Assembly: GCA_026391295.1 (NCBI GenBank)
Contig: JAPLDS010000052.1
Location: forward strand, 1-64,000
Reading direction: 5' to 3'
Source of the DNA: Bacteroidia bacterium
GTDB lineage: Bacteria > Bacteroidota > Bacteroidia > Bacteroidales > Prolixibacteraceae
Length of the DNA stretch: 64,000 nt
Shown here: positions 5,729 to 57,838 of the stretch, one piece after another
Layout of the letters: each line of letters starts with the position of its first letter
How positions within the stretch are numbered: position 1 is the first letter of the stretch
Program-made: the position numbers and the translations under genes
The notes under the pieces: model-generated
Told to the model about the DNA's origin: nothing
Database searches by the model: none
The model's input: the letters and a program-made list of their open reading frames with translations, nothing else

Positions 5729-5739
5729 GGTTGTTTTAA

Positions 5740-37531: not shown

Positions 37532-39778
37532 TTGATGAAAAAAATCGTCGCATTTTTTACCCTAGCTTATTCTCTTTCTAGTTTTGCTGTATTGGCTCAG
37601 CCTGGAAGTGCAGTTAAACCTGTTTTCAAGGATATTCCATTTTCTCAGAACTACAGTATAAAATATAAGCTTAAGGAAGAGGGACTAAAACTTGAAAAAG
37701 TCTTCGCCGATCGAAATGGGGCCATTCAAATTCTTTCATCTGCGGGCTTGTTAAAAACCTATGCTGGTGCATTCTTATATCCCGGAACCCTTGTCCCAGA
37801 TTTGGCCTACCGTCCAATGGGTGATAAGAAAATATCTAATCTTGGTGTGTTGCAAAATCAATTTATCTACTTAGATGATAAGGCTGTTTTAAGTAATGCT
37901 TGGGCTGGAAAATTCTATTCAAAACATGAAACTCCTGAAGCCAAAATCTTTGCTGTCTCTCCAGATTTTACCTCCCTTATTTCTGATGGCACATCATTAA
38001 AACTGGTGCAGGAATCTAAAAATACTTGGTCAGGAAAGCTAACTAATGATAACATTTTAGCGATAAAATATAACTCTGAAAATGGTCTATTTTGGATTTT
38101 AGGGACTAAGTCATTGAGCTCATATTCTTTAAAAGATCAGAAACTAAAATTGGTTTATGAAGGTGTCAATTTTACAGATTTTGACTTGACTGATGCGGGT
38201 AAAAAAGCTGTCATTGGCACATCAAACGGCTTTCTTGAAGTGAATATTCAAACGGGAAAACAGGTCGGTGATGTTTATCGTAAAATTCCTGTTACAGATA
38301 TTACCTGTGTTACCACTATCAATGGGAAAGTATGGTTGGGCACATCGGATGGAGCTTTCATGATTCGCGGCGATGGTAAATATGATTATTACAACGGAGA
38401 ACGTTGGATCATTGGTGATGCGGTCAAACATATTGCAGCTGGACCAGATCACTCGGTGCTTATCCTTACCGATAAAGGTCTTGGACAGATCTGTTTTCAG
38501 CAAATGACCCTGGAAGAGAAAGCATTGTTTTACGAAAAACAAGTCCGTCAACGCCATATCCGAAATGGCTTTAACTCTTCTCTTGAAGGGATGAAAGATG
38601 GAGACATCTCTACTGGACTATTGAAAGATTCAGATAATGATGGTCTATGGACTGCGATGTATTTGGGTGGTCAGATATTCAGATATGCGGCAACGAAGTC
38701 AGACGAAGCACTGCAAAACTGCTACGAATCGTTGGATGCTCTAGAGCGCTTGTATTCTATTAATTCAAATGCTGTTGGATTCCCCGCTCGATCATTTGAG
38801 CGCCGTGGCGATATAAACAGGTTGTCGGATCACGATCGTTGGAGGCACGCTGAGGACCCTGAATGGGATTGGAAAGCAACCACTAGTAGCGATGAGGCAA
38901 TTGGTCATATTTTTGCTTTAGGTGCCATGGCCGAACTTATCAATGTGGAGCCGATGAAATCTCGAGCTATCCACTTAATTGATATTTTAATGCAACATAT
39001 TGTTGACCATAATTATTACTTGATTGACTGGGATGGCAAGCCAACGACATGGGGACGCTGGAATCCTGAATATGTGAATGCACGTCCAGTCATGGTTGGC
39101 GATCGGAAAATCTGCTCTTCGAATATTACTTCGATGTTGCAAACTGCCTACCACTTTACCCATAAAGAGATTTACAAGCAAAAAGCGCTTGAGCTTTTGT
39201 ATAAGAATGGTTATCTCGAGAACCTAATGCGCCCTATGAAATCAATTGGAGAGGCTCCTGCAAATTCAGATGAGTTGAGTAAAGATCTCTCAAATGGTTG
39301 GAATCACTCGGATGATGAGATGTATTTTATTGGCTATTGGGGTCTTTATCGTTATGCGCTAAATGCAGATCTGAAAACGCAGTATAAAGCTTCTATTATT
39401 GACCACTGGGAGATCGAACGGCCGGAGAAAGAGGCCGCTTGGAATATCTTCACCGCATTGGCTAGTAATGAGTTTGACCTAAAGGAATCAGTGTGGTGGC
39501 TTCAACGCTATCCACTTGATATGATTCACTGGTCTATTCAAAATAGTCATCGGAAAGATATTGAAATGGTTGCTCCGAATTTCAGACAGCAAACAATAAC
39601 AGAGGTTTTACCTCCAGACGAACGACCTGTTCATCGCCACAATGGCAACATGTTTAGCTTGGATAATAAACGTAAACGAGGTGATGGAAATGGCGAAGAG
39701 AGTGCTGGCGATATCTGGCTGCTCCCTTATTGGATGGGGAGATACTTGGGCGTTATTAGCGCTCCGGTGAAAAAATAA
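37532..39778 (+). CDS. Secreted propeller plus predicted alpha-helical toroid protein, paralogue 1
   Basis: Signal peptide; VWLGTSDGAFMIRGDGKYDYYNGERWI; MTLEEKALFYEKQVRQRHIRNGF; DSDNDGLWTAMYLGGQ; SSDEAIGHIFA; NHSDDEMY; LPYWMGRYLG. Confidence 0.75.
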   Translation: MMKKIVAFFTLAYSLSSFAVLAQPGSAVKPVFKDIPFSQNYSIKYKLKEEGLKLEKVFADRNGAIQILSSAGLLKTYAGAFLYPGTLVPDLAYRPMGDKKISNLGVLQNQFIYLDDKAVLSNAWAGKFYSKHETPEAKIFAVSPDFTSLISDGTSLKLVQESKNTWSGKLTNDNILAIKYNSENGLFWILGTKSLSSYSLKDQKLKLVYEGVNFTDFDLTDAGKKAVIGTSNGFLEVNIQTGKQVGDVYRKIPVTDITCVTTINGKVWLGTSDGAFMIRGDGKYDYYNGERWIIGDAVKHIAAGPDHSVLILTDKGLGQICFQQMTLEEKALFYEKQVRQRHIRNGFNSSLEGMKDGDISTGLLKDSDNDGLWTAMYLGGQIFRYAATKSDEALQNCYESLDALERLYSINSNAVGFPARSFERRGDINRLSDHDRWRHAEDPEWDWKATTSSDEAIGHIFALGAMAELINVEPMKSRAIHLIDILMQHIVDHNYYLIDWDGKPTTWGRWNPEYVNARPVMVGDRKICSSNITSMLQTAYHFTHKEIYKQKALELLYKNGYLENLMRPMKSIGEAPANSDELSKDLSNGWNHSDDEMYFIGYWGLYRYALNADLKTQYKASIIDHWEIERPEKEAAWNIFTALASNEFDLKESVWWLQRYPLDMIHWSIQNSHRKDIEMVAPNFRQQTITEVLPPDERPVHRHNGNMFSLDNKRKRGDGNGEESAGDIWLLPYWMGRYLGVISAPVKK

Positions 39779-39827
39779 AGTTCAATCCGTTAGCGGACGG
39801 ATTAAACTTTGAATTATTTTTTTTTTA
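39777..39827 (+). terminator. Terminator-like hairpin after propeller paralogue 1
   Basis: AAAGTTCAATCCGT-TAGCGG-ACGGATTAAACTTT followed by a T-tract. Confidence 0.8.
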
Positions 39828-39851
39828 AAGTCTTATAAATTAAACCATAAA

Positions 39852-41955
39852 ATGAAAAAAGTTACTCTATTGGGTTTTATAGTAGCCCTACTATTTTGTT
39901 CGAAAATCAGTTTTGCTCAGACAACTGAGAAACACCTTGATAAGCCATTTATACAGGATTTTAGCGTTAAATATACACTTGAAGATCAGACTGTAATTTT
40001 AAAAAATGCAGCTGCTGATCACAATGGATATATTCAGATTCTCTCCTCAAAAGGGTTGCTTAGACCACGTAATGGTCAGTTTCTTTTTCCTGGAACGTTA
40101 GTCACAGACCGTCAAGATCGTCCAACATCTGACAAGCATATTTCTAGCATTGCAACATTCCAAGACCAGTTGGTTTATCTTGATGATAAGGCTGTCTTTA
40201 GTAATGCTTGGGCTGGAAAATTATTTGTTAAACATGCTTTGCCAGGTGCTAACATTTTAACTGTTGGCAAGGATTTTGGATTTCTAATCTCAGATGGAAA
40301 AGTTTTAAAACTGATCTCTAATTCTACCGTTGCGTGGGAAGGATCGTTAGCTGGCGAATCTGTAAAAGAGATCAAGTTTGATGCGAAATCTAATCTTTAC
40401 TGGATTTTAGGAGCCGCTTCGATACAGGTTTTCTCTCCAGACAAGAAACAACTTACAAAGGTTATGGATGGAACTACTTTTACTTGCTTAGCACCAGTTG
40501 CAGGAAAGGTTTTCGTAGGAACGAAAGATGGTTATTTAGAGCTAGATGCTAAGACTCAAAAACAACTAGGTGGAATCCATCAAAAAATGCCTTGGACTGA
40601 GATTACCTCTGCAAATGAGGTAAATGGAGAACTTTGGTTTGGGTCTACCTATGGTGCGATGATGCTTCGAGCAGATGGAAAATTTAACTATTTCGCCTCT
40701 AAACGTTGGCTCCCTTCCGACACGATCGTGAGTATCACCAAAGGTCCTGAGCATTCAGTTTTGGTCTTGACAAATGGTGGTATGGCACAGATCTCATTCA
40801 AGTCGATGACTTTGGAAGAGAAGGCGATGTATTACGAAAAACAAGTACGTGACCGTCATATCCGACTCGGTTTTAATGCTACTATTTCGGGTATGACCAA
40901 TGGTGATGTGACCACTGGAAGTCTTGAAAATTCAGATAATGATGGGTTGTGGACAACCATGTATTTAGCTGGAGAGACCTTCCGCTATGCAGTCACTAAA
41001 TCAGACGAGGCGCTTCAGTATGTGCGCGAATCACTTGATGCTATTGAACGTTTATACACCATCAATCCATTGCACAATGGTTTCCCATCACGGTCTTTTG
41101 AAAGAGCGGGATATAACAAGACCAGTGAGCCTTGGCGGGCTACTGAAGATCCTGAATGGGATTGGAAATCAACAACAAGTAGTGATGAAGCCATTGGTCA
41201 TATTTTTGCTTGTGGAGCCATTGCAGAGCTTGTGCCTGATCCAGCATTGAAGAAACAGGCGATTACGATTATTGACACCTTGATGTCGCATGTCGTGACA
41301 AACGATTTCTATATGATCGATTGGAATGGTCAGCCAACATAAGGATGCTGCATTCTTGCTTATGAAAAAGCACGGTTACCTCGAAAACCTGATGCAGCCA
41401 ATGAAAGGAATAGGAATGGCTCCCAAAGATGCTGATGGCCTAAGTCAGAGATTATCGAGCGAATGGAATCACTCCGACGATGAGATGTATTATTGCGGAT
41501 ATTGGGGGCTTTACCGATATGCCCTTAATGATACCCTTAAGGCAAAATATAAAGAGGCAATAATCGATCATTGGGAAATTGAACGACCTGAAAAAGAGGG
41601 GCTTTGGAATATCATGACCGCAATTGCAGGAGCGAAGAAAATTGATTTAAATGAAGCCATTTGGTACCTACAGCGCTATCCTCTTGATATGATTAACTGG
41701 ACTGTTGTAGCGAGTCATCGAAAAGATATCGAGAAGATTGCCCCAAACTTCAGAAATCAAACAATTACAGAAGTCCTTCCTCCCGATGAGCTGCCGCTAT
41801 TTAGACATAACGAGAACCGTTTTAATCTAGAGGGTCATGACAATGGCAGTTCAGAACAAAGCGCAGGCGATATCTGGCTACTCCCTTATTGGATCGGTCG
41901 TTATCTAAATGTGATTGGTGCTCCTGAAAAAGCAGCTGCTGTAGTAAAAAAATAA
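39852..41955 (+). pseudogene. Propeller/toroid paralogue 2, split by an internal deletion (ORFs 39852-41342 and 41326-41955)
   Basis: First ORF ends YMIDWNGQPT*; the overlapping frame resumes HKDAAFLLMKKHGYLENLMQPM. Paralogue 1 has about 40 extra residues (TWGRWNPEYVNARPVMVGDRK...) at this point. Confidence 0.87.
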
Positions 41956-41967
41956 GTGTTTTTGTAT

Positions 41968-42017
41968 AGAGGAATAGGCGAAAGAATTTTCTTATCCCTG
42001 TTCCTCTATTTTTTTAA
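41968..42017 (+). terminator. Terminator-like hairpin after the broken propeller gene
   Basis: ATAGAGGAATAGG...CCTGTTCCTCTAT followed by TTTTTTT. Confidence 0.65.
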
Positions 42018-42073
42018 GTTAGATTCAATTCTATTGGTCTTGTTCTATTAAAACTAACTCAAAGCCATCCCTT

Positions 42074-43843: not shown

Positions 43844-43912
43844 GTTGAAGAGTAATTATAGTGCCATGCAATCGAAGTGTGACAGAATGGTTAATTTGGT
43901 TCGTTTTAAACG

Positions 43913-45745
43913 TTGTTGTTTATGAGAATAATATTCATATCGTTTATATTCATACTCTTTACGCAGGGATTATTCGCTCAGCCTTCGGTTGATAGGCTAA
44001 TTCCAGTACCCTTAAGCTCTGTTAAGGTAGAGGGTGAAATGGGGCGGCGTATTGATATTACCATTCTATCAAATTTGCTGGAACTCGACGTTGACAAAGA
44101 TTTTTTGGCTCCATTTTTAGTAAAAGAGACGAAAAAGTCAAACTACATTGGTCTTGGCAAGTTAATCGATGCGACTGCGAAGTTTGCTGCTTATAGTGGA
44201 GACTCAAAGGTTATTGCTTTAAAAAATAAGTTAACTTCTTCGATTATTAAAGCGCAAGAAACAGATGGTTATCTGGGGAATATGGCACCTTCAAATCGAA
44301 TGTGGAAGCTTTGGGATGTGCATGAAGTGGGTTATATTATATATGGACTAATCACCGACTATACTCTTTTTGGTTCTGAGTCGTCTCTTGCTGCGGCAAA
44401 AAAGGGTGGCGATTATCTTCTTCGAAATTGGTCGTCAATGCCCATTGGATGGCAGGATAGTACTGGGGTAGGACTACATGTTGCAGGTATCGGAATCGAT
44501 CGCACCATGATTGCTTTATTTAAGGCAACGAAGGATCGACGTTACCTAGATTTCTGTGATAAGGTGTTGCATTTACACCAGTGGAACCCTGGAATAGTGC
44601 TTGGTCGTCGTAAATTAGTCGAAGGTCATATCTATAGTTATATGGCTGCTTCCCTAGCTCAATTGGAACTCTATCGTCTTGAGCAGGATAAGAATCTTTT
44701 GATCCCTACCATGAACGCGATAGACTTTTTATTTAATCAAAATGGGGTGGCCATCAGTGGTGGCGCAGGTCAAGTGGAGATCTGGACCAACGATCAAGAT
44801 GGAGGCCGGGATCTGGGTGAGACATGTGCAACAGCTTATCAACTCCGTGTCTACGATAATCTCCTGCGGATGAAAGAGGATTCTAGATATGGCGATATCA
44901 TGGAACGCACCATCTTCAATGCCTTGTTTGGTGCGCAATCAACAGATGGTCGCAAAGTTCGTTATTTTACCCCATTAGAAGGCGATCGATCCTATCACGA
45001 TGCAGACACCTATTGTTGTCCAAATAATTACAGACGAATACTCGCAGAACTTCCAAGCATGGTTTATTATAAATCGGGTAATGGAGTAGCAGTGAATCTT
45101 TATACATCCTCTAAAGCAACGATTCAGCTTGGAGCGAATCGGAAAGTTGGTTTGACTCAGCAGACTGATTATCCTAATTCTGGTCAGGTTATTTTGAAGA
45201 TTGATCCATTAACTACAGCCGTCTTTCCGGTCAAACTTCGGATCCCATTGTGGTGTAAAAATGCTTCTGTTGCTATCAATGGGGTGATAGCTAAGGTTAA
45301 CTGTAAACCAGGATTTTTTGCTATTCTTGAACGAGAGTGGAAGCGTGGAGACCAGATCACGTTGCAATTACCTATGGAGTGGCGTCTTGTAAAAGGTCGT
45401 GAGCGTCAAGCAGGTCGTGTTGCGATTATGCGCGGTCCATTACTTTTTGGTCTCAATCCGACTCAAGAAAAATCGCTTGCGAATAGATCGGCTGCGGATT
45501 TAGGTCGATTAATCGTTTCTAAGAAAATGTTAGATCCCCTGGCTGTTCATGCGGATGGATTTTATCCCACAGCCATCGGATGTCAGTTAAAAGCAGGATC
45601 GAAAATGTGGGCGATGGATAACCCTGGAGATCTTGATCTTTTATTTTCTGAGTTTGCCGATCCTGGGATTCGGTGCACCTATTTTAAGACCCCTAATCTT
45701 ACTGAAGCAGTAGAGGATGAATTAATAGGTTTGAATTTTAATTAA
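43913..45745 (+). CDS. GH127-like (beta-L-arabinofuranosidase family) secreted protein
   Basis: QETDGYLGNM, WDVHEVGYIIYGLI, GETCATAYQLRVYDNLLRM, ERTIFNALFGAQ, DTYCCPNNYRRILAELP. Confidence 0.85.
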   Translation: MLFMRIIFISFIFILFTQGLFAQPSVDRLIPVPLSSVKVEGEMGRRIDITILSNLLELDVDKDFLAPFLVKETKKSNYIGLGKLIDATAKFAAYSGDSKVIALKNKLTSSIIKAQETDGYLGNMAPSNRMWKLWDVHEVGYIIYGLITDYTLFGSESSLAAAKKGGDYLLRNWSSMPIGWQDSTGVGLHVAGIGIDRTMIALFKATKDRRYLDFCDKVLHLHQWNPGIVLGRRKLVEGHIYSYMAASLAQLELYRLEQDKNLLIPTMNAIDFLFNQNGVAISGGAGQVEIWTNDQDGGRDLGETCATAYQLRVYDNLLRMKEDSRYGDIMERTIFNALFGAQSTDGRKVRYFTPLEGDRSYHDADTYCCPNNYRRILAELPSMVYYKSGNGVAVNLYTSSKATIQLGANRKVGLTQQTDYPNSGQVILKIDPLTTAVFPVKLRIPLWCKNASVAINGVIAKVNCKPGFFAILEREWKRGDQITLQLPMEWRLVKGRERQAGRVAIMRGPLLFGLNPTQEKSLANRSAADLGRLIVSKKMLDPLAVHADGFYPTAIGCQLKAGSKMWAMDNPGDLDLLFSEFADPGIRCTYFKTPNLTEAVEDELIGLNFN

Positions 45746-45766
45746 TTACATATAAACTAATACACT

Positions 45767-48076
45767 ATGAAATCTTTTCTTCAAACAATGGCCATCGCAC
45801 TGATGTTCTTGAGCCTTAACGCAGGTTTCTCAAATGCTCAGGTTTCGAAGGTTCAAAAAACAGTCAAAGGTTCACCCGATGAGGTGTATCTTCAAGAAGT
45901 TGCAAAACGGATCGTAACCGCACATCCGGTGGAAGGTATTGCCGTTTTCAAGGACGATTGTTTCGCTGTTATTCAAGGGCAGATTAATCTGTTGCAGAAA
46001 GATGTCTTTGTTCCAGAGGCAGCTTCACCATCAAACGTTAAAAGAATTATTGTTATTGGCGGCGATCTTTGGGCGCTTGCATTAGATGGGCTTTATCGGT
46101 ATAACGCTCATTCGTGGCAGAAGATAGATAGCCAAGAGTATGTCGATCTTTGTATCCATCAAGGAAAGCTTCATGGTGCAACAAAAGAGGAGATTTTCAG
46201 ACTTGAGAACGATCATTTTGTTTCAACAAAACCTAAAGGTGGATATAACTCAAGCGACATTACCATGTTGATGGAAGATGGATCACAGGTTCATGCTGAT
46301 CCCGTGCGGATTGGTCCGATCATGCGCATTGCTTCGTATAGCGGAACGTTATATGTGCTGCAGCCAGGTAAGCTTATACTTTTTGATGGCCTTGTGGTAA
46401 ATGAAGATTTTATCGACTGGGGTAGACTGCCATCCAAAACAACCACGGGCATGCTCTCTGATGGAAGCAAATTGTTTGTAAGCACCAATAAGGGTCTGGG
46501 TGTTTTTCGTGGGGGTGCAATGACTGCCCTTCAAGGTAAAGATGGATTGCCAATTGAGAATACCACCTGTCTGGCCAAAGGATTTGAGGATGACATCTGG
46601 ATTGGTACAGCTCGTGGAGCTGTTCGAAAAGTCAAGAATGAATGGCATTATTTTGGTTCTGATCAGTGGCTTCCTGGATTGCAGGTAAGTGAAATTGCTG
46701 TTGGGAAAAGTGAAGTTTATGTGGCTACTGACAAAGGTGTTGGAATCATAAGCTATGTGCCTTATACGCTTCAGAAAAAAGCTGCTTTTTACGAGCAACA
46801 TATACTTAACTGGGGTCATAAGCGTTTAGGATTTGTCCATACGTTGTATAAAAAAGATGGGGAATGGATTCGTGAAGTAAGTGATAACGATGGCGGTAAC
46901 ACCGCTACCTATCTTGCGGCGATGAGTTATAAGTATGCCGTAACGGGCGATCTTGCGGCTCGCAAAGAGGCTGTTGAAGCTTTCAAAGCTTTAGTATGGC
47001 TTGAGCGAATCTCTACTGTCAGAGGATTTTTTGCACGCGCTATCTGGTCGCCAACTGGAGATCAGTGTGAACGTGCGACTCAAGGGTCAGGGGGGTTGCC
47101 GGCTCGTTGGTATCCTACTAAAGACGGCAAATGGTTTTGGAAAGGTGATACCTCCAGTGATGAGGTGACCTCTCATTTCTATGCCGTTTCTCTATTCTAT
47201 GATATCGTTGCTCAGGGTCCCGAAAAGGAGATGGCTCGTGAGCACATGAATCGTATCGCTGGGTATATTCTTAAAAACGGGTATGTCTTCAACGATTTAG
47301 ATGGCAAGCCAACACGCTGGGGTCGCTGGAATCCCGAATATCTATTGCGTCCATATGGCTACAACGACAGAGGTGTTAATGGTCTTGAGGTGTTAGCCTA
47401 TATGCAGTCGGCCTATGCAGTTACCGGTGATCAGAAATTTGAGAAGGGGATGAAACAATTAGTTGGCTATGGTTATGCCGAAAATACCATTCGTCAAAAA
47501 AACACCTTCCCACCATCTACACTTGCTCCATGGGATGATAACCTGGCTTTTGAAAGTTACAATACCTTGCTCCGTTATACTACCGATCCACAATTGCGAT
47601 CGATCTATTTGAGGAGTCTTGAACGATCATGGGAGGTCAAACGTATGGAGCATATCCCTTGGTTTAATTTCTCCTATGGGGCTCTTTCTGGTAATGAGTG
47701 TGAAATTGAACAGTCTGTTAAGCATCTGCGCGAGTGGACACTTGATTGTGGTGAATATAATTATCGCAACTCTCTTCGTGACGATTTATTTGTGGAGGCT
47801 GGATATACCTCGTATGAGGGTGGATTAAAAGCGATGTCGCCTCGTGAGACTTCGGTGAAATCAGGTAGTCGAAGAGCCATTGATCTTGATGGGGGTAACA
47901 ATGGCAATGTAATCAAAGAACCGACGGGATTTCTAAGAGACTATTGGATGGGTCGTTATCATGGCTTTATTCAATCCCCGTCAACAACTGATCCAGCTTT
48001 ACTGACCGTTCCTAAAGATAACTCAGGCCCTCATGGAGCTAAACCGTATGATGGACCTGGACGGCCGGAGTTTTGA
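45767..48076 (+). CDS. Secreted propeller plus predicted toroid protein, paralogue 3
   Basis: VSDNDGGNTATYLAAMSYKYAVTGD, GDTSSDEVTSHFYAV, DLDGKPTRWGRWNPEY, DYWMGRYHGFI. Confidence 0.75.
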   Translation: MKSFLQTMAIALMFLSLNAGFSNAQVSKVQKTVKGSPDEVYLQEVAKRIVTAHPVEGIAVFKDDCFAVIQGQINLLQKDVFVPEAASPSNVKRIIVIGGDLWALALDGLYRYNAHSWQKIDSQEYVDLCIHQGKLHGATKEEIFRLENDHFVSTKPKGGYNSSDITMLMEDGSQVHADPVRIGPIMRIASYSGTLYVLQPGKLILFDGLVVNEDFIDWGRLPSKTTTGMLSDGSKLFVSTNKGLGVFRGGAMTALQGKDGLPIENTTCLAKGFEDDIWIGTARGAVRKVKNEWHYFGSDQWLPGLQVSEIAVGKSEVYVATDKGVGIISYVPYTLQKKAAFYEQHILNWGHKRLGFVHTLYKKDGEWIREVSDNDGGNTATYLAAMSYKYAVTGDLAARKEAVEAFKALVWLERISTVRGFFARAIWSPTGDQCERATQGSGGLPARWYPTKDGKWFWKGDTSSDEVTSHFYAVSLFYDIVAQGPEKEMAREHMNRIAGYILKNGYVFNDLDGKPTRWGRWNPEYLLRPYGYNDRGVNGLEVLAYMQSAYAVTGDQKFEKGMKQLVGYGYAENTIRQKNTFPPSTLAPWDDNLAFESYNTLLRYTTDPQLRSIYLRSLERSWEVKRMEHIPWFNFSYGALSGNECEIEQSVKHLREWTLDCGEYNYRNSLRDDLFVEAGYTSYEGGLKAMSPRETSVKSGSRRAIDLDGGNNGNVIKEPTGFLRDYWMGRYHGFIQSPSTTDPALLTVPKDNSGPHGAKPYDGPGRPEF

Positions 48077-48109
48077 GTGTATTGGATGAGCGTCTATTTT
48101 TAGATTTGT

Positions 48110-48355
48110 CAGAGTTGAACCCACTTCGGGGTTCCTGCCCCAGATTAGCACCTGGGGTTATTGAAATTACAGTCCTTCGGACTTTTTACTGCGCTGAAGG
48201 GGTTTCCATCAGGTGACGGATGAATAACCGTGGGTGTAACTATAGAAGCAGGAATAAATCCTAAAATAACCCTGAAAGGGTGAAATCATAATAACTGTGG
48301 GTGCAGCCCACGGAAGAAAAACATCAACAACAGCCCTGAAGGGGTTGAATATCTA
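48110..48355. repeat. Cluster of short palindromes (REP/BIME-like)
   Basis: AACCCACTTCGGGGTT, CCCCAGATTAGCACCTGGGG, AGTCCTTCGGACT, ACCCTGAAAGGGT, CTGTGGGTGCAGCCCACGG, GCCCTGAAGGGGTTG. Confidence 0.85.
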
Positions 48356-48553
48356 AAAAATAACTAACTTCAACTAATAATTAAGCAGATAAACCTAAGA
48401 CATATTATGACGAAAAGTCCAAATTTCAAATAGCAAAATTCAAATGTGCAATAATTTATATTTATTTTCACTTTGCCTTTTGATATTTGAATCTTGCATT
48501 TTGATTTTTTATCTGCAGACTTTGTACCTTGAATTTCTTTCTAAACTAAACAT

Positions 48554-50932
48554 ATGAAAACTTTTCTTTCTCGCTTATTCCTCCTAATTTTTTTGCTGGC
48601 CGCAGGAATTCAATATTCTGCCCAGGCTCAGTCCGATAAAGCGACTGACCATGTCAATCCATTGTTAGGGACCGACTTTTTCGGACATACTTATCCAGGT
48701 GCTGCCTTGCCTTTTGCAATGGTTCATCTCAGTCCAGATATGAATACTCAGGGCTGGACCTACTGCGCTGGATATATCTATTCCGACAACTCCATTATGG
48801 GCTTTAGTCATACCCACTGGAGCGGTGTGGGGATGGTGAATGGGGGCGAAGTCTTGCTAATGCCTAATGTTGGCGATAAGTTGCATACGACACCAGGTGC
48901 TCCTGAGAATCCAGGCGAAGGATATCGTTCGCGCTTTGATCATGCGGATGAAGTGGCTTCTCCGGGGTATTACTCCGTTGTGCTTAAAGATTACAAGGTC
49001 AAGGTTGAGCTAACAGCCACTAAGCGAGCTGGATTTCATCGGTATACTTTCCCAAAAGCTAATAATGCGCGGGTGATCTTAGATTTAGGTCATCAGATAG
49101 GGGAGAATAAATCGGAGCAATTATCTGAGTTGCGAATTATTGAAAATAAACGAATCGAAGGGGTGAAAAGCGCTGGACTAGGAAAAGTTTATTTTGTTGC
49201 TGAGTTTAGTAAGCCATTTGCCTATTATGGAACATTTGATAATGATCTAAAAACACCAGAATCTGGCGGTAGCATCTGGCCATATAAAAATGGGGAAGTG
49301 GGTAAAAATATTGGAGCCTTCGTAAATTTCAAGACTACTGAAAACGAACAGATTTTAGTGAAAGTTGGAATTAGCTATACTAGTCTTGAGGGTGCTCGTA
49401 ACAACCTACATACTGAGATTCCAAATTGCGATTTTGATGGGATCCGTGGCGCTGCGCAAAAAACGTGGGAGAGTGAGCTGTCACGCGTTAAGATTGATGG
49501 TGCAACAGACGATCAAAAGGAGATATTCTATTCCGCACTTTATCACTCTTTGTTAGCTGAATATATTTCGCAAGATGTGGATGGTAAGTATTATGGTTCC
49601 GATAAAAAAATTCATGAGGCAAAAGGGTATGATTTCTATGGCTCATTCTCTTGCTGGGATACCTATCGTTCGCAGCATCCTTTGTTGACCGTTATCGCTC
49701 CCGACCACGTGAATGATATTGTGAAGTCGATCGTTGCCAAGACGAAAGACTACGGCTGGTTGCCTGCTCAGCATTTTATGAATTTATTTGGAGAGACTAT
49801 GGTTGGCGATCATCTTATTCCAATTATTGTAGATGCTTATATCAAAGGTTTCCACGATTTTGATGTTGAATTTATTTATAAAGCGATGCGCACCAAGGCC
49901 TTAGAAGAACCAAAGCCTCCTGTGCCTCATCATGCGGGTCGTTCAGGCTTGAAATATTATATTGAGCTTGGCTACACGCCGGTGGATAAAGTTACGGAGT
50001 CGGTGCCGAATACCTTGGAGCTTGCTTACGACGATTGGTGTATTGCTCAGTTAGCGCAGGCCTTGGGTAAAAAAGAAGACTATGCGTTGTTTATGAAACG
50101 GGCCTCTAACTATCAAAATCTTTGGGAGCCAAAATCAAAGTTTATGCGCCCTAAGCTTACCGATGGAAATTGGTTGGAACCATTAAATGGTCGCGAGCAG
50201 GAGATTGTTAAAGTTGGCGAGCATTCATATTATAAATATTTTGATCCATTGTTGGTTGGAAAACGACCAAGTCGCCACTATACCGAATCAAATGCATGGC
50301 AATATATCTGGTCAGTACAGCATGATGTAAAAGGTTTGATAAATTTATTTGGAGGTAACAAAGCATTTACCGCGAAGCTCGATACCTTCTTTCAGATGAG
50401 TCCGAATATTTCTGCTCCGAAATATGTTGGTGTGGTAGGTACGATTGGTCAATATGTTCATGGCAATCAGCCATCTCATCATGTCTCCTATCTGTATGAT
50501 TTTGCTGGTGAGCCTTGGAAGACACAGAAATGGGCTCGGGAAGTCACTGTTGAGCTATACCGCAGTGGCCCTGGCGGAATTTGTGGTAATGAAGATATGG
50601 GCTCACTTTCGTCGTGGTATGTTTTAAGTGCGATGGGTATTTATCCGGTTACGCCGGGTAGTCCGTATTATGCCATTGGTAGTCCATTGTTTGGCAGCGC
50701 CACTATAAAGGTTGGTAATGGAAAGACCTTTGTGATCGAAACGCATAATAATTCAGCAGAGAATAAATATATCCAGTCGGCGAAACTTAATGGCAAGCCC
50801 TTAAACAAAACATGGCTGTCATACAAAGAAATTACCGACGGTGGAAAAGTCCAATTTGAGATGGGACCAACACCGAATAAAAACTGGGGAAGCAAACCGC
50901 AAGATGCTCCTCCTTCGATGAGTGTACGTTAA
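48554..50932 (+). CDS. GH92-like alpha-mannosidase, secreted
   Basis: DHVNPLLGTDFFGHTYPGAALPFAMVHLSPD, GFSHTHWSGVG, FSCWDTYRSQHPLLTV, GNEDMGSLSSWYVLSAMGIYPVTPG. Confidence 0.95.
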   Translation: MKTFLSRLFLLIFLLAAGIQYSAQAQSDKATDHVNPLLGTDFFGHTYPGAALPFAMVHLSPDMNTQGWTYCAGYIYSDNSIMGFSHTHWSGVGMVNGGEVLLMPNVGDKLHTTPGAPENPGEGYRSRFDHADEVASPGYYSVVLKDYKVKVELTATKRAGFHRYTFPKANNARVILDLGHQIGENKSEQLSELRIIENKRIEGVKSAGLGKVYFVAEFSKPFAYYGTFDNDLKTPESGGSIWPYKNGEVGKNIGAFVNFKTTENEQILVKVGISYTSLEGARNNLHTEIPNCDFDGIRGAAQKTWESELSRVKIDGATDDQKEIFYSALYHSLLAEYISQDVDGKYYGSDKKIHEAKGYDFYGSFSCWDTYRSQHPLLTVIAPDHVNDIVKSIVAKTKDYGWLPAQHFMNLFGETMVGDHLIPIIVDAYIKGFHDFDVEFIYKAMRTKALEEPKPPVPHHAGRSGLKYYIELGYTPVDKVTESVPNTLELAYDDWCIAQLAQALGKKEDYALFMKRASNYQNLWEPKSKFMRPKLTDGNWLEPLNGREQEIVKVGEHSYYKYFDPLLVGKRPSRHYTESNAWQYIWSVQHDVKGLINLFGGNKAFTAKLDTFFQMSPNISAPKYVGVVGTIGQYVHGNQPSHHVSYLYDFAGEPWKTQKWAREVTVELYRSGPGGICGNEDMGSLSSWYVLSAMGIYPVTPGSPYYAIGSPLFGSATIKVGNGKTFVIETHNNSAENKYIQSAKLNGKPLNKTWLSYKEITDGGKVQFEMGPTPNKNWGSKPQDAPPSMSVR

Positions 50933-50942
50933 TCTCATTCAT

Positions 50943-50971
50943 AAAAAAAGCCCCAGTCAGGGGCTTTTTTT
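50943..50971. terminator. Bidirectional terminator between convergent genes
   Basis: AAAAAAAGCCCC-AGTCA-GGGGCTTTTTTT. Confidence 0.93.
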
Positions 50972-50994
50972 ATGAAGTGAATTCTGGTTAAACC

Positions 50995-52032
50995 TTATTT
51001 TACAATTGGAGTTAACACAAGATTCCGATATGATACCTTACCGTGATCTCCTTGAAGATAGATAGGACCAGGGGTAAATACATCTGATTTCATCGCACCT
51101 CCAGTTGGGCCGAAGATAGGTTGGTTATCGATGATTTTTACTCCATTCAAGATCACCGTGGCATGACGGTCGCATAGGGTGATATCCATCGATTGCCATT
51201 CGCCTGCAGGCTTCTCAGCTGCTGAAGTTGGTGTGATCCGACTATATACAGCGCCCATATTATGCGGGTCAAGCTCGTGTTTGTATGAATCGACTACTTG
51301 GACTTCATACATACCACGAAGGTAAACACCACTGTTGCTTCCGGCAGGAACATTGACCTCTAATTTTAAATTGAAATCTTCAAACTCTTGCTCTGTCCGA
51401 AGGTTGCCATAGCTTACATGAGCCCCTTCAACTTGAACAGGATCATTGGAAAGCAAACCGTTTGAAACAGAGAAGCCATTTTTCTGCTTGTCATTGATCA
51501 GTTTCCAGCCACTAAGATCTTTCCCATTAAACAAGGTTGTTGGAGTTCCAAACTTCACTTTTGATAAGTCAGGAGCAGGAGGTGGCGCTGGTAATTTTGT
51601 TCCACTAAATGCCGTAGAATCAACTCCAGTTCCATCACGATGAGGGTTGTAGATATACCCAACAATCTTATCGCCTTGTCTTTTTACTTCAAGCCAATTG
51701 GTAACTTGATGCGAGCGTAAAGCTTCGTTCTTCTCGTTTTTTGTCCGAATAACTTTGTCTCCTCTCTCGACAATCAGCGAATTATTATGCAAGTAAACAT
51801 TAGCCACTGGCACGACACTTCCTCCACCCCAAAGTAGGTCGGCATCGATATAGCCCTTCTCTTGACGGACTTCCAGCCATCCCACAGAGCCTCCTTTGAT
51901 GTCGATCGTCCACTGACCAAAGAACTCATTTACTTCAATTTTTTTTGCTGCTGCAACTTTCGGTTTGAAATTGCAAGAAGTCAAAGACAATGCTGCCAAC
52001 ACGACTCCTAGATAGATAAATTTAGCTTTCAT
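50995..52032 (-). CDS. DUF1080 (3-keto-disaccharide hydrolase-like) lipoprotein
   Basis: Lipobox LTSCNFKPK; TTLFNGKDLSGWKL, NSGVYLRGMYEVQVVDS, HATVILNGVKIIDN. Likely start MKAKFIYLG at 52032 rather than 52137. Confidence 0.88.
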   Translation of the reverse strand: MKAKFIYLGVVLAALSLTSCNFKPKVAAAKKIEVNEFFGQWTIDIKGGSVGWLEVRQEKGYIDADLLWGGGSVVPVANVYLHNNSLIVERGDKVIRTKNEKNEALRSHQVTNWLEVKRQGDKIVGYIYNPHRDGTGVDSTAFSGTKLPAPPPAPDLSKVKFGTPTTLFNGKDLSGWKLINDKQKNGFSVSNGLLSNDPVQVEGAHVSYGNLRTEQEFEDFNLKLEVNVPAGSNSGVYLRGMYEVQVVDSYKHELDPHNMGAVYSRITPTSAAEKPAGEWQSMDITLCDRHATVILNGVKIIDNQPIFGPTGGAMKSDVFTPGPIYLQGDHGKVSYRNLVLTPIVK

Positions 52033-52249
52033 TGATTTAAAAATTAGTTTGTAAAATTTAAACTGACAGGATAAATAATTAGTTTTGAGGCAGGTTATTC
52101 GGCTATTCAATAATACCACATATTTGTAATATATCAAACTTCTTAATGATAATTCCTTCGCTGTTTTTTCGTTCGAAATCTATTAAATTTGGAGTGCTTA
52201 AACTTCAGGAAAAATAAATAGGTTAAACATTTTACCTATCCTTGTTGTA

Positions 52250-53473
52250 GTGATTACAGAAGATAAGGTTCCCTCGTCTTTTAAAGAATATTGCAGTTTA
52301 ATTATGGAACAAAATATCGATTATATAGCCCTTAGTGAAAACGGAAACAAAAAGTTTACCGACGAAGATTACCCAGGAGCTATCTTAGATTACACTCAAG
52401 CTATCGCGCTAAATTCGAATGATGCTGAGCTTTACTATAACCGTGGCAACGCGAAATACAATTTAAATGATTTTTTCGGTGCTATTGCCGACTATAATGT
52501 GGCACTCGAGATTGACTCTGGCTACGACATGGTATACAATAATAGGGGAAATGCAAAGAATGCTTTGAACGATTATCGAGGAGCTATTGCTGATTATTCT
52601 GCTGCTATAACCGCCGATGCAGAGGATGCCACTGCGCTTTATAATAGAGGTTTTGCGAAGAATAGCATTGAAGATTTTAGAGGGGCAGTCATTGATTTTA
52701 CTGCAGCTATTGCAATCGATCCGATGCATATTGAGGCTTATTACAATCGAGGGGTAAGCAATTTTTTCTTGCGGAATTATAAAAGTGCCATCACCGATTA
52801 TTCAAAAGTCATCTCCTTGGAGCCATACGATTCAATGGCATTTTGTAGTAGGGGATTGGCCCGAAAAGGGTTAGATGATTTCGATGGATCGATCCGTGAT
52901 TTTACGATGGCTATTGATCTTAATGGAGAGGATGTTGTTTCGTATTACAATAGAGCGTTAGCAAAAAATGCCCTATTTGACTATCGAGGTGCAATTGATG
53001 ATTTCTCTATGGTCCTTGTTCTTAGTCCAAAATATACCTTGATCTATAATCTTCGTGGTCATGCCAAAGGTAATCTTCAAGATTATGCAGGAGCCATAGC
53101 CGATTATACCAAAGTTATAGAGGCGGAGCCAAACGACGTTCTGGCTTGGTCTAGCCGAGGATTTGCGAAAAATGCCATACAAGATTTTAGGGGAGCTGTA
53201 GCCGATTATACCAAAGTCATCGAGCTAAATTCAACCTATCCCTCCATTTACACCCATCGCGGGAATGCGAAATGCAACCTTAAACTTTATGGTGGAGCAG
53301 TAGCTGATTTCACTTCTGCTATCCAACTTAATCCTGATGATGCTGAATCGATCTATGCTCGTGGATTAACACGCCTCGATCTGGGACAACAGCATGAGGC
53401 AGCGTTAGATTTCCAACGAGCTGCTGAGTTGGGTTCTGCGGATGCCATAGAAGCTATTGCGAAATACTGCTAA
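52250..53473 (+). CDS. TPR protein with 11 gapless 34-aa repeats
   Basis: Repeated YYNRGNAKxxLxDYxGAIADYxxAIxxxPxD; GTG start at 52250 or ATG at 52304. Confidence 0.9.
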   Translation: MITEDKVPSSFKEYCSLIMEQNIDYIALSENGNKKFTDEDYPGAILDYTQAIALNSNDAELYYNRGNAKYNLNDFFGAIADYNVALEIDSGYDMVYNNRGNAKNALNDYRGAIADYSAAITADAEDATALYNRGFAKNSIEDFRGAVIDFTAAIAIDPMHIEAYYNRGVSNFFLRNYKSAITDYSKVISLEPYDSMAFCSRGLARKGLDDFDGSIRDFTMAIDLNGEDVVSYYNRALAKNALFDYRGAIDDFSMVLVLSPKYTLIYNLRGHAKGNLQDYAGAIADYTKVIEAEPNDVLAWSSRGFAKNAIQDFRGAVADYTKVIELNSTYPSIYTHRGNAKCNLKLYGGAVADFTSAIQLNPDDAESIYARGLTRLDLGQQHEAALDFQRAAELGSADAIEAIAKYC

Positions 53474-53497
53474 ATAGCATCAAATCATTCGTCTGTC

Positions 53498-55663
53498 TTA
53501 TTTCTGGAAGTAACCATGATACCTCCCCATCCAATAGGGAAGTAGGAAATAGGCCCCATCATCTTCATGAGTTCCATTTGAACCTATTATAAACTCTCGT
53601 GGATTTGAATTCGCCTTCACAATACCTGCCTCTGGCGTAGGAATAATTCGTGTAGCTTGCGCTTTTCTAGAGCGGTCAATAAGCTGGTCGGCTTGCAGAT
53701 CCCAGCGGTGACTATTATCCATAGTCCAGGTGATCATATCCATGGGGATAAGCTGAAGTTCCTCTTTGGCAATTGCTATATCACAATCTTTCTTGAGTGC
53801 TACACTTGCGATTATGTTCCATAGCGGAGTTCGATCGGGCTTCGCTGCGTTCCATGCTCGTTGAATACTTGTGGTATAAGTGGGAAGATGTTTAGTGTCT
53901 TTTGAATAAGCAAACAGTGAATAATAAGGAAGGTAGGTTAAGATATCATCTGAGTGGCTATTCTCATATGGAACGGCTCTCTTGGCCTCCAGTGTATTCT
54001 CTGCATAGTGATGCTTTTGAATCAGCATCTGATAAGCCTTTTCAAATTTTTGATCTCCAGTAATGTATACGGCAACTTTTAGGAAGGAGAGTATCTGCAG
54101 GGAATTAGTGCCTCGCTCATACCACCGACCTGGAACATTGTTCAGCGAATCGGGATTCCAAATGGCCCATTGTGTAGGCTTTCCATCGAAGTCAATAAAT
54201 TGGAAGTTATTCGTGATAATATGAGTCATTTCACGGTCAACGAGCCCTTTTATTCGCTTTTTTGTTGGAGCATCTGCAACTAGATCATAAAAAAGTGGAA
54301 TGGCAAATAGATGTCCGGCAAGCTCATCCGAGCTCGCATCATCGAGCCATTGCCACTTCCCATCGGCTGAAGGATGCCATTTTTTTGGATAGGGCGAACG
54401 CGACTGGATCACGGTATCAGAAGCGGCTGCAAAAGATCGTCCAGGCAACCCGCTGATTCCAGTTGCTGTTTCTAGTCGTTCTAGAGCTTCGTAGCTGTTA
54501 ATTGCATTTTTTTTCGCTTCTGGATCTTTAGTGACTGCATATCTAAAGCACTCAGCTGCCAAATAGATTGCCGTCCAGAGTCCATCGTTATCGTTGGTGG
54601 TTTTTTTACTCGTCGACAAGTCTCCTGGGGTAGTTAATAGCGATTGACTAATTAACCCATATCGGTTGTGGCGCAGGCTGATTCGTTCTTCAAAGACCGA
54701 AGCTTTCTGCTCCAAGGTCATGGGTGTTTGTTTAATCTGACTGATTCCTGAGGGTGTTGCAATCCATACGGTATGCTCGTCCAGTGGAAGTATGTCATTG
54801 ATTTTATTGTTTGGCAACCATCTCTTTCCATTGTAATAATGCCATGTTGAATCTTTCTTGATGGCTCCTTTATCGGTTCCAAGCCAGATAGTTTTATTGA
54901 AGGAGTGAATGGATGTGATTGGACCATAAGGGAGTCCGTCGGCACCTCTTAAAAGCCAATGGTCGCCATCTTTAGCTATACATCCGAGGGCAAAAAGTCC
55001 ACCAAACACCACGTCATTTTTAGCTGTTGTCTCAAGGGCAAAATACTGTCTCTTTAGCCCTTTTGCCATCAGATGGGCATCCATATTAAACCACCCTGCC
55101 GCAATTCGGAGCAAAAGTCCATTATTGGTCGCAACCCATAAATCGCCTTTTTGATCGGCGGCTATAGCATGTACCCTTGACCCCGCTGCAATTGAGACTG
55201 AATGCCACGAACCATCATAGGTTAAAAGACCATTATTGGTGCCAACATGTAGCACCTTTTCATTCTCCCAGGCTAGACAACTAATGGTATCGTTTTGCGA
55301 ATTCTCGGGAAGTTTAAGAAGAACGGTACTATCTCCATTTTGAATAAAATTCTTAGATGCCAGCCATATCTCATTTTTCTTGTCGAGCGTTGCCGTTTCC
55401 CAAACAGAATGGTTTGGTTTACCTGTCCAACTATTGTTTTGGAAGGAATAAATCCCATTTGACGTAACACAAGTAACTTTTTCCTTTGTTTTGAAAAGCT
55501 TTAAAATATTCGAAGATGCTAAATCGGGTAATTTTATATCGCTCTTTATCTCTTGTAGATAGGTTTCGTGAACGAGCTTTAAACCCACAGAGGGTTGAGA
55601 TTTCGTGTTGAACTGTATTGAAAATACAAGAAGAATACTGCAGATTAATCGATCGATTTTCAT
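53498..55663 (-). CDS. Secreted propeller plus predicted toroid protein, paralogue 4
   Basis: WLGTDKGAIKKDSTWHYYNGKRWLPNNKINDILPLDEHTVWIATPSG; TNDNDGLWTAIYLAAECFRYAVTK; ASSDELAGHLFA; LPYWMGRYHGYFQK. Confidence 0.75.
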   Translation of the reverse strand: MKIDRLICSILLVFSIQFNTKSQPSVGLKLVHETYLQEIKSDIKLPDLASSNILKLFKTKEKVTCVTSNGIYSFQNNSWTGKPNHSVWETATLDKKNEIWLASKNFIQNGDSTVLLKLPENSQNDTISCLAWENEKVLHVGTNNGLLTYDGSWHSVSIAAGSRVHAIAADQKGDLWVATNNGLLLRIAAGWFNMDAHLMAKGLKRQYFALETTAKNDVVFGGLFALGCIAKDGDHWLLRGADGLPYGPITSIHSFNKTIWLGTDKGAIKKDSTWHYYNGKRWLPNNKINDILPLDEHTVWIATPSGISQIKQTPMTLEQKASVFEERISLRHNRYGLISQSLLTTPGDLSTSKKTTNDNDGLWTAIYLAAECFRYAVTKDPEAKKNAINSYEALERLETATGISGLPGRSFAAASDTVIQSRSPYPKKWHPSADGKWQWLDDASSDELAGHLFAIPLFYDLVADAPTKKRIKGLVDREMTHIITNNFQFIDFDGKPTQWAIWNPDSLNNVPGRWYERGTNSLQILSFLKVAVYITGDQKFEKAYQMLIQKHHYAENTLEAKRAVPYENSHSDDILTYLPYYSLFAYSKDTKHLPTYTTSIQRAWNAAKPDRTPLWNIIASVALKKDCDIAIAKEELQLIPMDMITWTMDNSHRWDLQADQLIDRSRKAQATRIIPTPEAGIVKANSNPREFIIGSNGTHEDDGAYFLLPYWMGRYHGYFQK

Positions 55664-55684
55664 CCTGAAAATTTCTTATTAAAC

Positions 55685-57838
55685 CTATTTCTCAATGATC
55701 AATCCATGATACCTTCCCATCCAATAGGGAAGTAAGAAAAATGCGCCGTCGTCCTCGCCATGGCCATCCGAGCCTGAATCATAGAGATAGGTGTTACTGT
55801 TCCATTTTGATATGCCTCGCTCTGGAGTTGGAATGGGCCTAATTGCTTGTGCCTTGCCAAAACGATCGTTTAACTGGTCTCGGGGTAAATCCCAACGATG
55901 ACTATTCTCCATTCGCCAGGTGATTAGATCCATAGGGATTTGTTGAAGCTCCTCAAGGGCAATCTTAAGATCGCAATCTTTTTTGAGCCCAATACTCGAA
56001 ATGATGTTCCAGATTGGAATCCGATCGGGTTGCTCAACACGCCAACTGCGTTCGGTACTTTTTATAAATTTTGGCATTAGCTGAGCATCATTGGCATACC
56101 GCAGTAAGGTGTAGTTTGGTAAGAAGGCCAGTTCGTCATCCGAATGGTTGATATCGAAAGGTCCATACATCTTTTGCGGTATCATATTTTCGACATAGTG
56201 GTGTTTTTGTGTCAAGGTCTGATAGGCTTTTTCGAATTTCTGATCCCCGGTAACATGAAGACTCGCCTTTAGGAAGGCCAGTATCTGCATCGAGTTAATC
56301 CCTTTTTCGTACCACCAATTATTTGAGAAGTTTAAGGAGTCAGGAGTCCATACGGCCCAGCGTGTCGCTTTCCCATCGAGGTCTACGAGTTGGAAATTGT
56401 GATCAACGATGGTTCTCATCAATCTATGGACCAAGCTTTTAACCCGCTCTTTCATCTCAACTTCTGCCACTAAATCAAAAAATAGGGGATAGGCAAACAT
56501 ATGACCAACAATCTCGTCGGAGCTGGTATCACCCTTCCATTTCCATTTTTGATCAGGGGTTAAATGCCACTCCCCACCTTTGCCCGTATCTTCATCCGCT
56601 GCGGTGATTGATCGTGCCGGAAAGCCAGGCATTCCTGTCAGCTTCTCCAGTCGTTCGAGTGCTTCAAATGCTTTATTGGCATTTTTTTTCGCTTCGGGCT
56701 CTTTGGTAACTGCATATCGGTAGCTCTCTGCCGCTAGATAAATAGCTGTCCACAGTCCATCGTTATCATCTGTTCCAGTCCGACTTGTTGAAAGATCACC
56801 TGAAATACTTAAGCTAGATCCGCTAACCAATCCATAGCGGTCGTGACGCAGCCTGATTCGCTCTTCAAAGGCTTGTGCTTTTTGCACTAAGGTCATGCTA
56901 ACCTCTTGAATCTGATTGATCCCTTTCGAAGTAGCCACCCAGGTGGTATGTTCGTCGAATGGGAGAATATCGTTGGTCTTATTGTCAGAAAGCCATCGTT
57001 TTCCATTGTAGTAATGCCAGGTTTTGTCTCTCTTGATAACACCTTTGTCGGTACCCAGCCAGGTGGCCTCTTTTATTGTTTTAATCACGGTGATTGGTCC
57101 ATAAGGCAATCCATCGGCGCCTCTTAAGAGCCAGTGATTACCATCCGCAGCAATGCATCCAAAAGAGAATAGCCCACCGAATAAAACATCTCCAGCAGTT
57201 TTCCCATTTTGTAAGGCTGAATAATAACGTTTCAGACCGTTGGCCATTAAATCTTCATCTAAGTTAACCCATTGGTTATTCATCCGACGCAAGAGTCCTC
57301 CAGTTGAGGCTGCCCATAAATCACCTTTGGAATCTCTTAAAATTGAGTTTACTCGTTTTCCTGTTGAGCATGGGATCTCTGTCCAGCTGCCATTCCACGA
57401 GAGTAATCGATTTGTTGTTCCAATCCAAAGCGTTTCATTTTCTAGATAGAGACTTACAATGGTGTCTTGAGATGCTGTTTCCGGCAGGGTTAATTTTTTA
57501 TCCTCACCCTCTTTTTGAATTGTATTCTGATTGGCAAGCCACACTTTGCCCAGCTTATCTATGGTGGCAGTAAGCCAGCCGGTTCCAGATGGTTTTCCTA
57601 TCCAAGCTCCCTTTTCATAGCGAAAAACACCATTGGAGGCAACCGCAATAACCTTGTTCTCCTCCTTGAAGAGCTTAATAATTGTTGATTCAGCTGATTG
57701 AGGTAAGGCAATCTTAGTGCTTATCTCTTGGTAATACTTTCCGCTAATTACTGGCTTAATGGATTGTGCTGCAGCGGTCAAGCAGATTGCAGAAAATAAG
57801 ATGCTAATTAGGCTGGATAAGATGATTCTTCGTTTCAT
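55685..57838 (-). CDS. Secreted propeller plus predicted toroid protein, paralogue 5 (tandem duplicate of paralogue 4)
   Basis: WLGTDKGVIKRDKTWHYYNGKRWLSDNKTNDILPFDEHTTWVATSKG; TDDNDGLWTAIYLAAESYRYAVTK; NHSDDELA; LPYWMGRYHGLI. Confidence 0.75.
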   Translation of the reverse strand: MKRRIILSSLISILFSAICLTAAAQSIKPVISGKYYQEISTKIALPQSAESTIIKLFKEENKVIAVASNGVFRYEKGAWIGKPSGTGWLTATIDKLGKVWLANQNTIQKEGEDKKLTLPETASQDTIVSLYLENETLWIGTTNRLLSWNGSWTEIPCSTGKRVNSILRDSKGDLWAASTGGLLRRMNNQWVNLDEDLMANGLKRYYSALQNGKTAGDVLFGGLFSFGCIAADGNHWLLRGADGLPYGPITVIKTIKEATWLGTDKGVIKRDKTWHYYNGKRWLSDNKTNDILPFDEHTTWVATSKGINQIQEVSMTLVQKAQAFEERIRLRHDRYGLVSGSSLSISGDLSTSRTGTDDNDGLWTAIYLAAESYRYAVTKEPEAKKNANKAFEALERLEKLTGMPGFPARSITAADEDTGKGGEWHLTPDQKWKWKGDTSSDEIVGHMFAYPLFFDLVAEVEMKERVKSLVHRLMRTIVDHNFQLVDLDGKATRWAVWTPDSLNFSNNWWYEKGINSMQILAFLKASLHVTGDQKFEKAYQTLTQKHHYVENMIPQKMYGPFDINHSDDELAFLPNYTLLRYANDAQLMPKFIKSTERSWRVEQPDRIPIWNIISSIGLKKDCDLKIALEELQQIPMDLITWRMENSHRWDLPRDQLNDRFGKAQAIRPIPTPERGISKWNSNTYLYDSGSDGHGEDDGAFFLLPYWMGRYHGLIIEK

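Follow-up and report, generated by a model that had tools for sequence, protein, structure and literature searches.

What could be the role of a protein that is present in five related copies within one bacterial locus and whose C-terminal half matches nothing in Pfam, NCBIfam or PDB? The question is raised by a 64,000-nucleotide (nt) stretch of a Prolixibacteraceae genome (contig JAPLDS010000052.1 of assembly GCA_026391295.1, a 2.93 Mb draft in 81 contigs), hereafter called the window. A sequence-only reading of this stretch had described five paralogues of a secreted protein made of a propeller half and a helical half, and had suggested for the latter an undescribed family of glycoside hydrolase, lyase or epimerase. 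The best explanation, to which we give a probability of about one half, is that of a glycoside hydrolase (GH) family, undescribed with respect to the three databases named above and associated in the window's genus with polysaccharide-utilisation loci (PULs). The parts of this explanation differ in strength: action on carbohydrate is likely, hydrolysis rather than another chemistry is our best guess, and towards mannose-containing glycans as the substrate in this genus we lean weakly.

Copies of the family in the window

Four intact paralogues (37532, 45767, 53498 and 55685) and a broken one (39852/41326) were found in the window (Table 1), with their open reading frames (ORFs) where the earlier reading had placed them, and two extra copies on contig C51 bring the total for this genome to seven. 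The intact copies can be aligned end to end with a pairwise identity of 28-60%. When the 55685 protein was searched against the genome, the other intact copies were retrieved with E-values of 9.5e-273, 2.1e-89 and 5.1e-83, and the two halves of the broken copy with 1.8e-47 and 2.1e-22. Judged from these alignments, the likeness is far beyond chance, in agreement with the claim of five related copies. The motifs quoted for them are present as well, but some are not invariant, since 45767 deviates (DNDGGNT for DNDGLWT, TSSDEVTSH for SSDExxGH and PWDD for HSDD).

Predicted fold of the C-terminal domain

The AlphaFold2 model of the C-terminal domain is all-helical and confident (predicted local distance difference test, pLDDT, 93.8; predicted template-modelling score, pTM, 0.94). 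With inner and outer positions assigned from helix order, it strongly supports an (alpha/alpha)6 barrel of six inner and six outer helices. In a Foldseek search, structures of the AGE superfamily (N-acetylglucosamine 2-epimerase, cellobiose 2-epimerase, YihS) came first (3vw5, 4z4l; E 7.5e-06, TM 0.51), followed by GH76, GH146, GH88 and GH9. The structural neighbours are thus almost all sugar enzymes, all of them distant, with a TM-score of ~0.5 and, for the AGE superposition, a root-mean-square deviation (rmsd) of 8-9 A. Complement C4 fragments, a terpene cyclase and a squalene-hopene cyclase stand lower in the list; a search of viral predicted structures returned nothing useful.

The queries for sequence searches of Pfam, NCBIfam and PDB were single copies, a 4-row profile and a family of 71 diverse members; all of them left the C-terminal ~400 amino acids (aa) unmatched. 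The Pfam models for AGE (PF07221, at E <= 0.01), GH76 (PF03663), GH88/GH105 (PF07470) and GH127 (PF07944) each match 0/71 members. Profile-profile comparison by hhalign gave 46% probability against AGE, for a partial alignment of 92 columns that is out of register (domain residues ~130-239 facing AGE 250-353), 40% over 92 columns against GH76, 1% against GH88 and 0.3% against GH127, while the controls gave 86% over most of the length for AGE against GH76 and 3% for AGE against GH88. Set against these controls, the weak partial scores indicate that the fold is common to these families and that membership of the tested ones is not; membership of AGE, GH76, GH88 and GH127 was rejected on the basis of these comparisons together with the absence of Pfam matches. 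The sequence-only reading had predicted an (alpha/alpha)n domain of undescribed family and had proposed structure prediction with a structural search as the check, and the confident barrel, its exclusively distant neighbours and its unmatched sequence agree with it. What it left as a choice between hydrolase, lyase and epimerase holds in so far as the barrel is sugar-enzyme-like and of an undescribed family; among the three, a hydrolase is our best guess.

Two known families deserve mention for what they share. The GH76 alpha-mannanases (BT2949, BT3792) have an (alpha/alpha)6 barrel and a DD pair as catalytic residues; the family also has a conserved acidic pair (D567-D/E568), although the positions of the two pairs were not matched. 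The GH127/GH146 beta-L-arabinofuranosidases have an (alpha/alpha)6 catalytic barrel as well, and a GH127-like gene sits between window copies 2 and 3, but the family lacks both a GH127 profile match and the trailing beta-sandwich domains.

Conserved residues on the rim of the barrel

Among the 71 sequences, which come from many phyla, 52 columns are conserved at >=93%, and 38 of these fall on the long-loop rim (long loops plus the starts of the following helices), which comprises 216 of the 403 residues (p = 0.0018). Near-invariant residues, in 55685 numbering, are D358/D360, R409, D441/E442/H446, W494, Y548, D567/D568, N645/R648/D650, E673, N680, Y705/W706 and R709, the last falling just outside the rim set. 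All 71 sequences agree at D441, D567 and D650, and an acid (D or E) occupies position 568 in 70/71. The conserved acidic clusters noticed earlier in the helical domain therefore gather on one rim. The aligned sequences strongly support an enzyme-like conservation of the barrel, and secondary structure combined with barrel geometry suggests that the rim residues would form one pocket, as in an active site.

Could this pocket be that of a sugar epimerase or isomerase, akin to N-acetylglucosamine 2-epimerase and cellobiose 2-epimerase, with a His, Arg or Glu/Gln acting as acid/base on the rim? AGE-type enzymes have a barrel of similar length and fill nearly all the best Foldseek places; the weak local hhalign match pairs G-H446 of the family with the GHxxE motif of AGE; and H332 and H446 (conserved in 70/71) as well as R334 are near-invariant. 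We nevertheless consider an epimerase unlikely. Beyond the distance of the structural match and the short, out-of-register profile alignment (46%, as compared to 86% between AGE and GH76), the glutamate of GHxxE is not maintained: relative to aligned AGE proteins, the family has GH at 445-446 without E at +3, and of their C-terminal WKxPYHNxR motif it lacks the WKxPYH part. Moreover, it has no match to PF07221, is fused to a propeller and is mostly exported, whereas AGE enzymes are usually cytoplasmic.

Improbable to the same degree is a polysaccharide lyase, or an enzyme resembling the unsaturated-uronyl hydrolases, that would act on a uronic-acid glycan and bind its carboxylates through conserved Arg residues. 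The barrel is common to the GH88/GH105 unsaturated glucuronyl/rhamnogalacturonyl hydrolases and to many lyases, with 4q88 in the Foldseek list and a Bacteroides vulgatus GH88 among the matches. R334, R409, R648 and R709 are near-invariant, the propeller resembles a heparin/heparan-sulphate sensor, and GH67-N- and DUF4838-like genes lie within the window. Against this stand the 0/71 matches to PF07470 and the 1% hhalign score, and clusters for lyases, sulfatases or uronate catabolism do not recur across the family.

The N-terminal propeller and its variation

In the full-length 55685 model (pLDDT 91.9, pTM 0.90), seven blades are closed by strand 35-43 and the last propeller strand (306-315) continues directly into the first barrel helix (317-332). 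The best Foldseek matches are the sensor propellers of BT4663, BT4673 and BT3049 (4a2m, 3va6, 3ott), and Reg_prop (PF07494) matches copy 53498 (E = 1.8e-09) and several relatives. In these periplasmic sensors and in PorZ, too, an N-terminal strand closes the seven-bladed propeller. Unlike the BT4663-type sensors, the family has one propeller and not two, followed by the (alpha/alpha)6 barrel, and it is devoid of a Y_Y_Y domain, membrane helix, histidine kinase and response regulator; nor is a kinase gene adjacent. The resemblance to hybrid two-component sensors was thus rightly seen from the sequence, as was the missing kinase: no histidine kinase follows any window copy, and the protein ends at the (alpha/alpha)6 domain. 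Two other statements apply to the intact window copies but cannot be extended to the whole family. The division into propeller half and helical half does not hold for about a third of the examined relatives, which keep the last 1-2 blades only. As for secretion, the intact window copies are predicted to be Sec-exported, but Poribacterial and Gemmatimonadota long forms start at the propeller strand without an evident signal peptide, so that export is not universal.

Long forms have a conserved closing-strand Q about 280 residues ahead of the barrel; in many members from Acidobacteriota, Verrucomicrobiota and Lentisphaerota, it is found about 95-150 residues ahead, which leaves space for 1-2 blades. 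Both forms retain the last two blades and the blade 6/7 loop, Y276-x-x-G279-x-R281-W-L283-P-D-D, the best-conserved stretch of the N-terminal half (Y276 in 87/93, R281 in 91/93 and L283 in 87/93 sequences). The simplest reading of this pattern is that the last blade and the loop would belong to the catalytic unit, with the remaining propeller as an accessory. On the tree described below, 10 changes between long and short forms were counted, 6 of them forced by starred branches; these numbers are rough, because ORF length decided which rows were labelled 'short N-terminus' and a few rows are miscoded (L078, at a contig edge; L060, L080 and L086, by upstream read-through). In two Planctomycetota metagenome-assembled genomes (MAGs; L080:6288-9200 and L086:667-3582), a short form shares one ORF with an upstream DegT/DnrJ/EryC1 aminotransferase domain (Pfam shown for L080), which is either a gene fusion or a read-through of neighbours.

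Another possibility is a non-catalytic glycan binder or sensor, i.e. an orphan sensor propeller joined to a degenerate enzyme barrel, as could be suggested by a propeller of the hybrid two-component type and by the fact that enzyme activity of the family is so far unreported. It appears less probable still: the barrel is better conserved than the propeller, which many members lack, acids, His and Arg that are invariant across many phyla are typical of catalysis, and kinase, anti-sigma or transport partners do not recur.

Gene neighbourhood

The window copies lie in or beside SusC/SusD loci with GH92, GH127-like, GH31, purple-acid-phosphatase-like and DUF1080 genes, and the neighbours of the C51 copies are GH92, GH78, DUF1080 and AGE-family genes, a GH38 gene being about 14 kb off. 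A GH92 gene is found within about 11 kb of at least 18 of the 28 family loci tabulated from 7 genomes of the genus, several of the remaining rows being possibly affected by contig ends. In the window genome, this is the case for 3/3 family loci; assuming uniform placement of its 15 GH92 genes, the chance of such an outcome is about 0.002, an estimate made rough by the clustering of GH92 genes. GH92 is also near a family gene in Lunatimonas and in a related Cytophagales MAG. Outside Bacteroidota, no recurring operon partner was detected among 72 + 20 neighbour proteins, save relatives of the 58791/61162 proteins described below (two loci). The least probable alternative is an enzyme acting on a non-sugar substrate, for, although terpene cyclases and complement-type proteins, such as those low in the Foldseek list, also contain (alpha/alpha)6 and (alpha/alpha)7 barrels, and many phyla have no glycan genes beside the family gene, sugar enzymes dominate that list and the window neighbours, and an aromatic- and acid-rich rim suits sugars.

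A possible mode of action

For the glycoside hydrolase reading, we propose the following scheme. In the intact window copies, the Sec-exported polypeptide would fold into a seven-bladed propeller, the last blade of which runs into the (alpha/alpha)6 barrel. An oligosaccharide is the probable substrate; it would be bound in an open-rim groove that has conserved Trp, Tyr and Arg along its walls and that the blade 6/7 loop may cap, and the glycosidic bond would be cut by rim acids, the candidates being D360 with D358, D441/E442, D567/D568, D650 and E673. As an optional accessory, the full propeller would assist in glycan binding or positioning, like the disaccharide-binding propellers of sensors such as BT4663 (PMC5121618). 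In this genus, the copies would work within PULs, probably on mannose-containing or other heteroglycans, a preference that we derive from the GH92 neighbours.

Several points weigh against a glycoside hydrolase. Even the best hhalign scores, with GH76 and AGE, are only 40-46% over ~90 columns, and the catalytic pair of no known glycoside hydrolase could be matched to the family. The conserved H332 and H446 would fit an epimerase or a metal site as well, and that the acids face each other is an expectation from barrel geometry. Outside the window's genus, family genes are mostly solitary, without conserved glycan-gene partners, and some relatives seem to have no signal peptide.

A more tentative idea, which we find possible, is that the closing propeller blades are a structural part of the barrel active site in a new carbohydrate-active family, spread over many phyla, where the full propeller is optional and its closing blades, together with the blade 6/7 loop, are retained almost throughout. 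If true, this would be a new mode of building the active site of a sugar enzyme, and the reaction itself might be new. No description of a propeller plus (alpha/alpha)6 barrel architecture was found in the literature; it is the combination of domains that appears new, the sensor-type propeller and the (alpha/alpha)6 fold being already known.

Distribution and phylogeny

One scan of genome contigs revealed at least 560 confirmed relatives, the best 80 of which come from Bacteroidota, KSB1, Poribacteria, Acidobacteriota, Armatimonadota, Verrucomicrobiota, Lentisphaerota, Planctomycetota, Gemmatimonadota, Calditrichota and a few other phyla. The closest named loci are from Prolixibacteraceae/Bacteroidia lake MAGs; lone MAG records ('Thermoproteales archaeon', 'Bacillota') may be binning errors. 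A plasmid search gave nothing useful. The family is uncommon in the class Bacteroidia (3/295 sampled genomes) and nearly fixed in the window's genus (15/18 genomes, typically with 6-8 copies each).

In a quick maximum-likelihood tree of 87 C-terminal domains, 55685 and 53498 fall within the Bacteroidota clade. Copy 37532 groups with C51:1003 and one Planctomycetota sequence in a clade of three rows that has full support, and 45767 sits alone on a long branch, its placement being uncertain. These positions indicate old subfamilies kept together in one locus, at least three of them by this tree, and not one lineage; a recent tandem expansion was rejected on account of the same scatter. The gene order of the locus is common to the window genome and its sister G311.

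The intact copies are under strong purifying selection, with a ratio of non-synonymous to synonymous substitution (dN/dS) of 0.05-0.12. When compared to its intact orthologue in G311 (locus L119), the broken copy misses 128 bp at about 41339-41342, and the two sides share 4 bp where they join; the deletion shifts the frame and leads to an early TAA. Sister species of the genus have intact orthologues, and dN/dS for the 5' part is 0.06 (the row for the 3' remnant was discarded, being in the wrong frame). By this measure, the break would be either very young or an artefact of assembly or strain.

Table 1. Positions of the family members, their domains and neighbouring genes in the window
Feature	Position	Strand	Basis
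Paralogue 1, 748 aa: signal peptide, propeller, (alpha/alpha)6 domain at about 38504-39757	37532..39778	+	
Paralogue 2 (broken), 5' part; frame stops early at TAA	39852..41342	+	
Paralogue 2 (broken), 3' remnant past 128-bp frameshifting deletion	41326..41955	+	
Paralogue 3, 769 aa, most divergent copy; (alpha/alpha)6 domain at about 46766-47971	45767..48076	+	
Paralogue 4, 721 aa; (alpha/alpha)6 domain at about 53510-54721	53498..55663	-	
Paralogue 5, 717 aa; copy used for modelling	55685..57838	-	
Paralogue 5, seven-bladed beta-propeller, residues 30-315, closed by N-terminal strand 35-43	56894..57751	-	secondary structure, Foldseek
Paralogue 5, blade 6/7 loop, about residues 275-293, YYNGKRWLSDN...	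56960..57016	-	
Paralogue 5, (alpha/alpha)6 domain, residues 316-717	55688..56893	-	model and conservation
SusC/SusD-like pair, just upstream of paralogue 1	32131-35517, 35537-37180	+	
GH127-like beta-L-arabinofuranosidase-family neighbour	43913..45745	+	
GH92 alpha-mannosidase-family neighbour	48554..50932	+	
3-keto-disaccharide hydrolase family (DUF1080) neighbour	50995..52137	-	

Other genes of the region

Two ~780-aa exported proteins encoded at 58791-61133 and 61162-63501 (-) are 55% identical to each other and have no Pfam match; a PDB sequence search with the former was also negative. Relatives of them lie near the family gene in relatives of the window and in Acidobacteriia (L070) and Caldithrix (L075) loci. 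They have the look of a GH67/GH20-type N-domain with a TIM barrel and may be partner enzymes. At 57859-58730 (-), a dihydrodipicolinate-synthase-family gene is present as two overlapping ORFs; it is a single ORF in L010, L011 and L012, so the window gene is broken or misassembled. A lone TPR-repeat gene (52250-53473, +), also present in G311, lies between the DUF1080 gene and 53498 on the opposite strand. Two adjacent DUF4838 proteins with a GH67-N-like protein (3149-6981 and 8317-10746, -) constitute a second, poorly described putative glycoside hydrolase cluster. On contig C51 (G000:C51; L116: 8314-10209; L120: 2954-6196), an HldE-like PfkB/HAD two-domain kinase and a SIS-domain protein are encoded near GH38/GH92 alpha-mannosidases and the AGE-family epimerase, possibly as a heptose- or mannose-type glycan catabolic locus.

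Significance for the family

Hundreds of genomes from many phyla thus encode a protein to which Pfam, NCBIfam and PDB give neither a name nor a domain model nor a function. With the invariant residues listed and the fold confidently predicted, a single round of expression and assays could establish an activity for the family as a whole. Since some members have the full propeller and others lack it, they provide, in addition, a natural experiment on what a sensor-type propeller contributes to an enzyme.

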